From Bacteroidales bacterium (GTDB lineage: Bacteria > Bacteroidota > Bacteroidia > Bacteroidales > VadinHA17): a stretch of 64,000 nt of DNA. Both the position numbers and the translations under genes were made by a program. The notes beneath the pieces were generated by a model. It had not been told where the DNA came from and did not search any database. It saw only the letters and a program-made list of their open reading frames with translations. The stretch lies in contig PLLO01000011.1 in the NCBI GenBank assembly GCA_003142255.1, positions 186,001 through 250,000 of the forward strand, given 5' to 3'. Positions 12,618 to 16,587 of this stretch are shown one piece after another (the stretch's first letter is position 1; each line of letters starts with the position of its first letter).

Positions 12618-13901
<1,284 letters not shown>

Positions 13902-13951: not shown

Positions 13952-13971
13952 TTATTAACAATTGTTGATAA
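13952..13971. repeat. 20-bp near-perfect palindrome downstream of eno
   Basis: TTATTAACAATTGTTGATAA is symmetric apart from one G/T pair. No T run follows, so it is not an obvious terminator. It could be a protein-binding site or part of an mRNA 3' hairpin; function unknown. Confidence 0.4.
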
Positions 13972-14012
13972 CTTCTGTTTATATCAGGTTTACAAGAAGG
14001 AACTCCTTTTTA

Positions 14013-14043
14013 TTGTTTTTTGATATTCTTATATATACATTTG
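14013..14043 (+). promoter_or_regulatory. Bacteroidota-type promoter for the structured RNA
   Basis: A -33 element ATTG (14012-14015) and a perfect -7 element TACATTTG (14036-14043, matching TAnnTTTG) are separated by 20 nt, the spacing known for this phylum. Predicted start of transcription is near 14047-14050. Confidence 0.6.
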
Positions 14044-14047
14044 ATAT

Positions 14048-14557
14048 ATCGGGTGAGCGATAAAAGATTGCTCGAAAGATATGGAATCGGAAAAGGTTAC
14101 TTAAATGAAACAAGATCCGGTTCGGTCAGACCTTCTGGACTGCATATCAAGAGAGCCGAAGCCTGAACGAAGGGGACAGGTCCTAGACCAGAAACCGGGT
14201 GTTCAGTAAGATCGACGAAAACCGGAAACGTTCTTTCAGCGATTGAGTCACATGGCCCCGGGAAAAGAAGGACTTCGGTCTGGATTGAACCGGAACTGGT
14301 GTCAGATCCTTCGGGAAATGCACACTGGAGCCAGAAGGACACTTCGTCCCGGAAAGACCCGCCGCAAGGTGGGTAAAAAAGGACAGCAGGAAGGTTATAC
14401 CGTAACAAGTACGACCGGAAAGCCATGGGTTGCGGAGGCAGGTCTAGTATTTGTCGAAACAGCCGGTCAGAATAACAGTAATCCGACGCCGGATGAAGCT
14501 TCGGCTGCAAACGGTGGATGGGAACTAATCCTAGTGAATAGTTCCCATTATTGTTTT
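14048..14557 (+). ncRNA. unassigned structured non-coding RNA, about 510 nt
   Basis: No convincing protein is encoded, yet the stretch is visibly richer in G+C than its flanks and packed with complementary segments. Examples: AUAUC/GAUAU closing GAGCGA/UUGCUC at the 5' end; CUGAAC (14163-14168) with GUUCAG (14200-14205); ACCCGCC-GCAA-GGUGGGU (about 14347-14364); GACCGG (14413-14418) with CCGGUC (14463-14468); AUCCG-ACGC-CGGAU; and UUCG tetraloops closed by GGAC/GUCU, UCC/GGA and AGC/GCU. It begins behind a good promoter and ends in a terminator hairpin. The hallmark sequences of RNase P RNA (GAGGAAAGUC), tmRNA (3' TTCGA arm, tag frame) and 6S RNA are not seen. Class unknown; being an RNA is an inference from promoter, structure and terminator together. 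Confidence 0.65.
14519..14557 (+). terminator. intrinsic terminator of the structured RNA
   Basis: Perfect 9-bp stem TGGGAACTA (14519-14527) with TAGTTCCCA (14539-14547), 11-nt loop, followed by TTATTGTTTTT. Confidence 0.8.
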
Positions 14558-14573
14558 TATATACCTCAGGTTT

Positions 14574-14685: not shown

Positions 14686-16587
14686 ATGTCATATTCAGGA
14701 TTACCCGGATTTATCACTGACCTGGACAAACACTCAGAATTATTGAGGATTAAATCGTTTGTCGACCCGGTGCTCGAAATAACCGAAATAACCGACCGCG
14801 TATCCAAGTCAGGCGGGAAAGCCCTCCTTTTTGAGAACAACGGGACAAAATTTCCCCTGCTGATTAATGCCTTTGGCTCACAGAAGAGAATGTCAATGGC
14901 AATCAGCAGAAAAGACCTTGATGATCCAGGATCTGATATTGTCTCTTTGTTTGATCATCTTATTCCAGGAGGCCATAATATTTTCAATAAGCTATCTTCA
15001 CTTCCCGAACTGATAAGAATTTCCGGGTTCCTTCCGTCCCGCACCAGGAGAAAAGGGATCTGTCAGCAGATTGTTATCAAAGATCCTGACCTTTCCATTC
15101 TTCCGGTTCTCAAATGCTGGCCTCACGATGGCGGCCGGTTTATAACACTTCCAATGGTTCATACTGTTAATCCTGTTACCGGCAGGAAAAATGTCGGTAT
15201 GTACAGGATGCAGGTTCTCGACAGTAAAACGACAGCCATGCACTGGCAGCGTCATAAGACAGGTGCAAATCACTTTGAAGAATGGAAAAAAAACGGAAGT
15301 CGGATGCCTGTCACTGTCACCCTCGGCGGCGACCCGGTATATACATATGCAGCAACTGCTCCGCTGCCTGAAAATATTGATGAATATATCCTTGCAGGAT
15401 TCCTGAGAAAGAAAAAAGTTAAGCTTGTTAAATGTATTACCAACGACCTTTACGTCCCCTGTGATGCTGATATTGTGATTGAAGGATTTGTAGACCCGTC
15501 TGAGGAAATGATCTGGGAAGGACCATTTGGGGATCATACGGGGTTTTATTCACTGGCTGACTGGTATCCTAAATTTCATGTCACATGCATTACTCACTCC
15601 CGCAATGCCGTATATCCGGCAACTATCGTCGGGATTCCACCGATGGAAGATGCATGGCTGGCAAAGGCTACCGAAAAAATATTTCTTGCTCCCCTTAAGC
15701 TTGTTTTGCAGCCGGAAATTCTTGACTTTCATATGCCTGATGCAGGTACTGCCCATAACCTCGTAGTAGTGAAAATACAAAAGAGTTATCCCGGACAGGG
15801 AAGGAAGGTTATAAATTCATTATTTGGTGCCGGGCAGATGATGTTCACAAAATATCTCACTGTGGTAAGCGGAGAAGTTGATATCCGGAATTACGGCGAG
15901 CTTATCCTTCATATTCTTAAAAATACAGATTTTCAGTCCGATCTGCTCTTCTCCTCAGGTCCGCTTGATGTGCTTGACCATTCTTCTGACAATTTCTCTT
16001 TTGGTGGTAAGCTTGGTATTGACGGAACAGTAAAGATGAGGGAGGAGTCTTCTGTGAAGAACCAGGAACCAGGTAATAAGGACTTATCACCGGCAGAGGC
16101 TATGGATTTTACAATTAAGGTTTTGTCTGATGACGGGATAATGTTTAAAAAGGTAAGAGGTTTGCCTGTTATAATGGCAGGAGTTGATCAGAAAAGAAAT
16201 CCGGATTCAATCGCTAACCTTAAAAGATGCCTTGCTGAGAATGCGACGGTGAGAAAACAGGAATTGATCCTGGTAGTCGATCATAATGTGCCTTTGGATA
16301 ATATTGCCATGGCAGCATGGCAGATACTTGGAAACACCGACCCGGTACGTGATATATCCCTGTTGCCCGGAGGGAAGCTTCTTATAGATGGAACACTTAA
16401 AGCTTTCAGCAAGTCTCCGTTTCCAAGGAAATGGCCTAATGTTGTCTGCTCATCCGCTGAAACGATAAAAAAGATCGACTCAGAATGGGATTCTCTTGGC
16501 CTAGGGCCTTTCATTGCTTCTCCTTCTCTTAAAAATTCCAGACTGAGCTATAGTGACAGCGATGAGGTGTCCACAAATCGCATCTGA
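14686..16587 (+). CDS. UbiD-family prenylated-FMN decarboxylase
   Basis: Predicted decarboxylase using prenylated FMN, made by a UbiX partner that is not in this window. In this phylum the likely role is in menaquinone synthesis; 4-hydroxy-3-polyprenylbenzoate decarboxylase is the name usually given to the family. The 633 residues carry the signature EGPFGDHTGFYS (near residue 280), the preceding VTLGGDPVYTYAATAPLPE and the following YPATIVGIPPMEDAW. The C-terminal third continues to SIANLKRCLAEN and DHNVPLDNIAMAAWQ, as in the longer Bacteroidota forms. Monocistronic. Substrate is an inference. Confidence 0.88.
   Translation: MSYSGLPGFITDLDKHSELLRIKSFVDPVLEITEITDRVSKSGGKALLFENNGTKFPLLINAFGSQKRMSMAISRKDLDDPGSDIVSLFDHLIPGGHNIFNKLSSLPELIRISGFLPSRTRRKGICQQIVIKDPDLSILPVLKCWPHDGGRFITLPMVHTVNPVTGRKNVGMYRMQVLDSKTTAMHWQRHKTGANHFEEWKKNGSRMPVTVTLGGDPVYTYAATAPLPENIDEYILAGFLRKKKVKLVKCITNDLYVPCDADIVIEGFVDPSEEMIWEGPFGDHTGFYSLADWYPKFHVTCITHSRNAVYPATIVGIPPMEDAWLAKATEKIFLAPLKLVLQPEILDFHMPDAGTAHNLVVVKIQKSYPGQGRKVINSLFGAGQMMFTKYLTVVSGEVDIRNYGELILHILKNTDFQSDLLFSSGPLDVLDHSSDNFSFGGKLGIDGTVKMREESSVKNQEPGNKDLSPAEAMDFTIKVLSDDGIMFKKVRGLPVIMAGVDQKRNPDSIANLKRCLAENATVRKQELILVVDHNVPLDNIAMAAWQILGNTDPVRDISLLPGGKLLIDGTLKAFSKSPFPRKWPNVVCSSAETIKKIDSEWDSLGLGPFIASPSLKNSRLSYSDSDEVSTNRI

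Follow-up and report, generated by a model that had tools for sequence, protein, structure and literature searches.

The window—the whole stretch of DNA that was analysed, 64,000 nucleotides in length—carries eno (Enolase domains), whose stop lies at 13901, and a UbiD-domain gene, which starts at 14686. No credible gene is found between them. Here, a structured stretch of about 510 nt lies between a promoter and a terminator and adjoins eno, which precedes this RNA gene on the same strand. The features of the region are the following:

13952..13960, plus strand: DnaA-box-like site 1, TTATTAACA, inverted relative to sites 2–4
13963..13971, minus strand: DnaA-box-like site 2, TGTTGATAA (TTATCAACA on the other strand)
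13976..13984, minus strand: DnaA-box-like site 3, TGTTTATAT, 13 bp after site 2, degenerate in the window
13987..13995, minus strand: DnaA-box-like site 4, GGTTTACAA, 11 bp after site 3, degenerate in the window
14013..14043, plus strand: promoter, presumably of Bacteroidota type (TTG, 20 nt, TACATTTG)
14047..14558, plus strand: predicted structured ncRNA gene, its start set by the promoter and its end by the terminator
14046..14169, plus strand: 5′ domain (model R1)
14049..14054, plus strand: closing helix P1, 5′ strand UCGGGU
14055..14063, plus strand: conserved junction strand GAGCGAUAA
14170..14377, plus strand: central domain, whose length varies between families
14378..14521, plus strand: 3′ domain (models R2 and R3)
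14471..14480, plus strand: conserved junction strand AAUAACAGUA
14481..14486, plus strand: closing helix P1, 3′ strand AUCCGA
14518..14558, plus strand: predicted intrinsic terminator, 10-bp stem and T run

The promoter comprises TTG at 14013–14015, a 20-nt spacer and TACATTTG at 14036–14043, and is presumably of Bacteroidota type by the consensus of such promoters. Among 28 aligned members of the genus, TA and TTT of the TAnnTTTG element are invariant (28/28) and its G is found in 27, while the upstream TTG keeps its first T in all 28 and its G in 22. Conservation in the genus alignment covers the promoter and the RNA; the DNA upstream of columns 21–40 and that beyond the terminator are not conserved. 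The terminator stem is formed by 14518–14527 and 14539–14548, with TTTTT at 14554–14558. A protein-coding gene was considered for the two open reading frames over the region and rejected—neither is conserved, and the lengths of both regions spread across all three frames in the 28 genus members. The original prediction, made from this DNA alone, had named the TTG-N20-TACATTTG promoter, the terminator with its T run and the lack of a credible protein, and it agrees with these results on all three. All in all, the evidence points to a self-contained gene for a structured ncRNA at about 14047–14558, equipped with a promoter and a terminator.

Folding exceeds chance on both strands: the minimum free energy of the plus strand is −172.8 kcal/mol (z −3.64), with none of 100 shuffles as good, and the minus strand also beats chance (z −2.12, 3 of 100 shuffles as good). 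For 28 genus sequences, RNAalifold predicts 122 pairs, 51 of them with compensatory changes; the central domain likewise bears compensatory pairs within the genus. Two of the pairings first proposed for this RNA—CUGAAC/GUUCAG and a GCAA-capped hairpin—are part of the consensus fold and show compensatory changes; a third, GACCGG/CCGGUC, corresponds to no helix of it. The proposed UUCG hairpins find their counterpart in the motif CTTCGG, which is enriched over shuffles in 44 genus copies (2.50 per copy vs 0.18) as well as in 64 copies from outside the genus (1.25 vs 0.13).

Two more diverse alignments, A8 and A7, extend this picture. Fitted to covariance models, which favours their pairing figures, they show pairing in 88.6% (A8) and 88.1% (A7) of cells and changes on both sides at 22 of 31 and 27 of 28 pairs, respectively. 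Shuffled controls match none of the five measures in 500, while still yielding on average 17.3 (A8) and 21.7 (A7) pairs with both-side changes, and sliding the partner by 1–3 columns lets the pairing fall to 22–39%. Compensatory changes exceed both the shuffled and the slid controls, as is expected for an independent structured ncRNA gene, and the conservation of stems on which the original prediction depended is borne out by strong covariation within the genus and between families.

The closing helix P1 was additionally checked free of any alignment by comparing the 6-mer before the GAGNGATAA-type tag with the 6-mer after AACNGTA in 108 copies (105 distinct sequences, as three places were fetched twice; in L083, L085 and L086 the 5′ match is weak, E 0.047 to 0.23). 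Counted over 107 of the 108 copies, 98.3% of the P1 cells pair, against a shuffled mean of 91.2% and a shuffled maximum of 93.0%, and AATAACNGTA is present in 105 of 108 copies. Through P1, two strands that hardly vary among these copies, GAGNGAUAA and AAUAACNGUA, meet at the predicted base of the molecule. This helix (14049–14054/14481–14486), the upstream sites at 13952–13995 and the relatives described below go beyond what had been noted before.

Three strands of the 5′ domain, GAGC at 14055–14058, GCTC at 14070–14073 and GAGC at 14153–14156, can pair in two mutually exclusive ways. In a single case, locus L022, the three have changed in concert (AAGC, GCTT, AAGC), which is what a conformational switch would require. 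CCGGAA repeats are enriched as well (2.82 vs 0.30 per copy in the 44 genus copies, 1.47 vs 0.23 in the 64 others); since they are absent from 21 of the 64 non-genus copies, the reading of the RNA as a protein sponge on these repeats was not adopted.

Known RNA families were compared through Rfam 15 (4227 models), with the gathering threshold of each family as cut-off. In the window, cmscan finds no family at this cut-off, and thus no strong hit to a known class. The same holds for the RNA in 20 loci of relatives, where two TPP riboswitches and two tRNAs are found away from it. Under relaxed settings, the window region and three divergent members return only scattered sub-threshold matches to different, unrelated families. 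The best of these, to BjrC68 (23.2 bits at a cut-off of 39, E 0.0013), is confined to the 3′ end of one member and is judged to be chance, as is a match to BTnc060 that another member shows at its terminator, on the opposite strand. tmRNA and bacterial class A RNase P RNA are rejected as identities, the genome bearing both elsewhere (G000:C7:568596-568989 with 123 bits and G000:C11:22926-23308 with 239.4 bits, respectively), and the models of 6S RNA and SRP RNA give no match in the window or the relaxed region scan. The literature covered—with few subscription papers, and with preprints outside its scope—holds no description recognisable as this RNA.

These sequence grounds support a large structured ncRNA that has its own gene and whose class is absent from Rfam. 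The original prediction of a large ncRNA of a possibly undescribed class has gained in substance, as no Rfam family matches and the stems covary within the genus and between families. The class is rated as new because no catalogued family matches it and no described RNA with such an upstream module was found; this assignment we hold to be nearly certain.

The search of related genomes suggested at the outset was carried out by BLAST and finds the region in 32 of the 36 genomes of the genus, the own one included; it misses G002, G018, G019 and G030 (completeness 75, 89, 98 and 77%). Across 24 other genomes of the order, BLAST returns one 25-base match only, upstream of the RNA. Among 30 genus loci that were fetched, several of which end with their contig, eno is found in 27 (two partly), the UbiD-type gene in 26 and both in 23.

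Models reach further. R2, a 3′-domain model made from the genus, matches 30 of 393 genomes of the order, and in 20 loci around such matches the 5′-domain model R1 is correctly placed at E ≤0.01 in 16 and more weakly in 3, with no match of R1 at L088. R3, a model made from 64 matches, is found in 71 of 393 order genomes, covering 40 of 206 genera and 29 families by our own count, whereby some matches are weak, the weakest lie near the cut-off, and the model E-values are rough. At the cut-off used, with filters that lose weak matches, 322 of the 393 order genomes show no R3 match. A sample of the phylum yields R3 in 3 of 395 genomes: the own genome and a pair of genomes from a single family within the same class. 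The R3 matches L271 and L272 (family f128, same class, other order) bear a GnRAGnGATAA tag at 416–417 nt; the conserved box pair is absent from both.

Scanning named genomes for a sequence pattern yielded 102 stretches. Both models were run on 100 stretches: 87 carry complete matches to the two models, 3 (L162, L187, L199) are truncated by the end of a contig, and 10 match neither, the latter including records named Arthrobacter, Treponema, Paraglaciecola, Pirellulales and Alphaproteobacteria. Since the scan pattern sits in the 5′ domain, independence from the scan holds for the 3′ match only. Five stretches were searched with R1 only; L209, L216 and L217 matched, L218 and L219 did not. Isolates matched by both models belong to Draconibacterium (in the NCBI taxonomy Marinilabiliales, Prolixibacteraceae), Maribellus, Sunxiuqinia, Gaoshiqia and Prolixibacter, and many uncultured Bacteroidales add to these. 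Core lengths range from 279 to 696 nt. Most genomes with R3 bear a single match (61 of 71), ten bear two, and both Prolixibacter species carry two copies at a distance of about 2.3 kb, separated by a gene. Tandem pairs of the RNA gene are seen at L182, L211, L079, L084 and L087, with the upstream sites on each copy that has enough upstream sequence; the two copies at L084 share an identical 3′ domain, which might stem from the assembly at the end of a contig.

The genes around the RNA differ by group: its neighbour is eno, a DAHP-synthetase-family gene, citrate synthase or enoyl-ACP reductase. When the genes from 20 loci were clustered together with those in the first 30 kb of the window, no cluster turned out to be common to more than five loci; the largest one comprises TonB-dependent receptors at varied distances. 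A yicC-like gene and a guanylate kinase gene lie near the RNA at L075, L085 and L088 (two families), and a nitroreductase gene is common to L077, L085 and L088. As a conserved protein partner these were rejected, the sharing being too sparse. The RNA is not part of an operon.

Upstream of the promoter, the relatives keep more than the promoter itself. The palindrome made up of sites 1 and 2 is almost perfect, and their exact pair is unique in the genome. The inverted pair TTATTAACA-nn-TGTTRATAA begins 93–96 nt before the start of the RNA model in 99 of 108 copies; a pair score of at least 15 of 18 is reached in 99 of 108 copies vs 5 of 540 dinucleotide shuffles. Two direct sites with the core GTKNATA come next, the first 13 bp on and the second a further 11 bp on (104 copies). 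At 36 further, mostly weaker loci, which are part of the R2/R3 matches and of which L057 is a place already among the 108 copies, the pair lies 83–85 bp before TAnnTTTG in 29; L285, L298 and L300 keep only the distance from the pair to the RNA tag, and L286, L303, L271 and L272 do not fit the module. The comparison establishes four TTATNMACA-like sites at a fixed distance upstream of the predicted promoter.

The module can also be searched for as DNA only, that is, as boxes, promoter and RNA tag. Such a search finds it in 31 of 393 order genomes at 32 places, and a reversed control yields none. R3 matches 28 of these 31 genomes as well, in G391 on another contig. The module stands without an R3 match at L326, L328 and L329 (G121, G057 and G408, respectively); more divergent members of the RNA are therefore likely. 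In one group of families (L130, L128, L140, L152, L120, L164, L196 and L200), a further TGTTAATAACC-like site is seen about 65–80 nt upstream of the pair.

The R-box of Escherichia coli is TTWTNCACA (PMC4585315). The sites here fit TTATNMACA, whereby sites 1 and 2 carry A where the E. coli R-box has C. A cluster of DnaA-box-like sites at a conserved upstream place is what a DnaA-regulated promoter is expected to show, and control of the RNA by DnaA appears fairly probable on this basis. The own dnaA domain region (4 kb) holds a single TTATNMACA box.

Draconibacterium orientale, with its complete chromosome, allows for a comparison with the origin of replication. In 40 noisy samples of this chromosome, the arm running from 4.6 Mb round to 1.9 Mb has a mostly negative GC skew, six of its samples being slightly positive; from 1.93 to 4.35 Mb the skew is positive or zero. 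At the switch, positions 1,929,000–1,929,310 (L251, G426:C1:1929000-1929310) bear five TTATNMACA boxes, two of which are TTATTAACA; other 10-kb samples of D. orientale hold 0 to 6 such boxes. This stretch, in which TTATTAACA, TTATCCACA and TTATTCACA co-occur, is the likely oriC and lies 1.9 Mb from dnaA, itself at 0.5 kb. Such a large distance between oriC and dnaA is common in Bacteroidetes (PMC4755523). The single confident RNA copy of D. orientale is found at 0.42 Mb, 1.5 Mb away from the likely oriC (a second R2 match has E 0.21). In the own contig, the GC skew (20 samples) shows no switch at the locus. Its boxes had suggested the RNA locus as oriC; on the skew in the own contig and in D. 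orientale this reading was rejected. Given the switch and the boxes at about 1.93 Mb in D. orientale, the RNA locus is not the likely origin, yet it bears the same type of box.

As a whole, the best explanation seems to be a new RNA class that would be transcribed under the control of DnaA and act in trans, and we lean towards it. The structured, probably trans-acting ncRNA occurs across many families of the window's order, and its upstream sites would be DnaA boxes. With the sites read in this way, DnaA would sit some 45 to 90 bp ahead of the start and raise or lower transcription with the replication cycle. Action in trans is suggested because the neighbours differ between families; the RNA would most likely be a component of a ribonucleoprotein, which might report the growth or replication state. 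A role of the RNA in replication or the cell cycle is a more tentative proposal, and equally tentative is the full circuit, in which DnaA on the rigid four-site module would gate the RNA and the RNA, as a ribonucleoprotein, would feed back on replication or the cell cycle in many Bacteroidota families. Several observations weigh against the favoured explanation: the deviation of sites 1 and 2 from the R-box (A for C) and the degeneracy of sites 3 and 4 in the window, the single box in the own dnaA region and the boxes elsewhere in D. orientale, the out-of-order matches L271 and L272 without the conserved pair, and the 322 order genomes without a match at the cut-off.

The palindrome of 22 bp would equally suit an ordinary dimeric regulator. 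Hence, the ncRNA class might be new while its sites bind another regulator, such as a dimeric factor, and the RNA might serve a housekeeping or stress role unrelated to replication. The near-perfect symmetry of sites 1 and 2 and the degenerate sites 3 and 4 of the window fit this reading. However, the latter two are direct sites whose GTKNATA core is common to 104 copies, and the same type of box clusters at the likely oriC; another regulator is the less likely reading of the two. Alternatively, the DNA sites could be what matters, as an element that titrates or recycles DnaA, with the RNA as a side product. datA and DARS are such non-coding sites with 3–6 DnaA boxes (PMC4585315), and they too are clusters away from oriC. 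The RNA itself covaries strongly, though, and a pure titration site would not need a fixed distance between sites and promoter, so this reading has very little probability.

Less probable still are a divergent member of a known large class and a mobile element. RNase P RNA, tmRNA, SRP RNA, 6S RNA, OLE, ROOL and GOLLD are of comparable size and complexity, but neither the window nor the relatives show an Rfam family at the cut-off, and the tmRNA and RNase P RNA of this genome lie elsewhere. A mobile or selfish element carrying the RNA would account for the neighbours that vary by family, for the second match in 10 of 71 genomes and for the tandem copies; against it stand the single match in the other 61 and the place beside eno that is kept across the genus. 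Viral contigs do not contain the DNA module, plasmid and phage records give no blastn match, and three viral pattern matches are unconfirmed by the models run on them—the mobile element is unsupported in these collections. Least probable of all is a long 3′ untranslated region read through from eno, which the RNA does follow on the same strand in the window, or a chance-folding artefact, given the conserved own promoter, the terminator, the covariation and an upstream gene that is not eno in other families.

In our judgement, it is rare for a new class of RNA to reach about 500 nt and to extend over dozens of bacterial families, and such finds have pointed to unrecognised biology. Here, the RNA brings along a clue to its own control in the form of a rigid DnaA-box-like module, and it occurs in cultured isolates like D. 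orientale. Whether there is an RNA arm in the replication control of Bacteroidota thereby becomes a directly testable question.

In a loose sense, the RNA joins the large structured ncRNAs without an assigned function. OLE, ROOL and GOLLD are several hundred nucleotides long, bear complex conserved folds and have largely unknown functions, and they occur in other host groups. The RNA here is like them in size and in its complex conserved fold; unlike them, it matches no Rfam model at the cut-off, and to our knowledge none of the three bears DnaA boxes. A large RNA reported only from Thioalkalivibrio is, compared by description, likewise longer than 350 nt, complex, covarying and without assigned function; the main text of that paper does not contain the word stem bacteroid.

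For a connection to the cell cycle, CcnA of Caulobacter crescentus—an ncRNA tied to cell cycle and replication control—is a precedent rather than a presumed relative. CcnA maps to the origin, its presumed activator is CtrA, and it base-pairs with mRNAs (PMC8959179). The RNA here differs from this account in lying away from oriC in D. orientale and in its four DnaA-like sites upstream. Clusters of DnaA boxes outside the minimal origin are found in E. coli at datA, DARS1, DARS2 and the mioC promoter (PMC4585315), and the DnaA-box-like cluster described here resembles them in its place outside a minimal origin. The sections of PMC4585315 drawn on report no control of a structured RNA by these elements; unlike the elements as described there, the sites here stand at a fixed distance to the promoter of an RNA.
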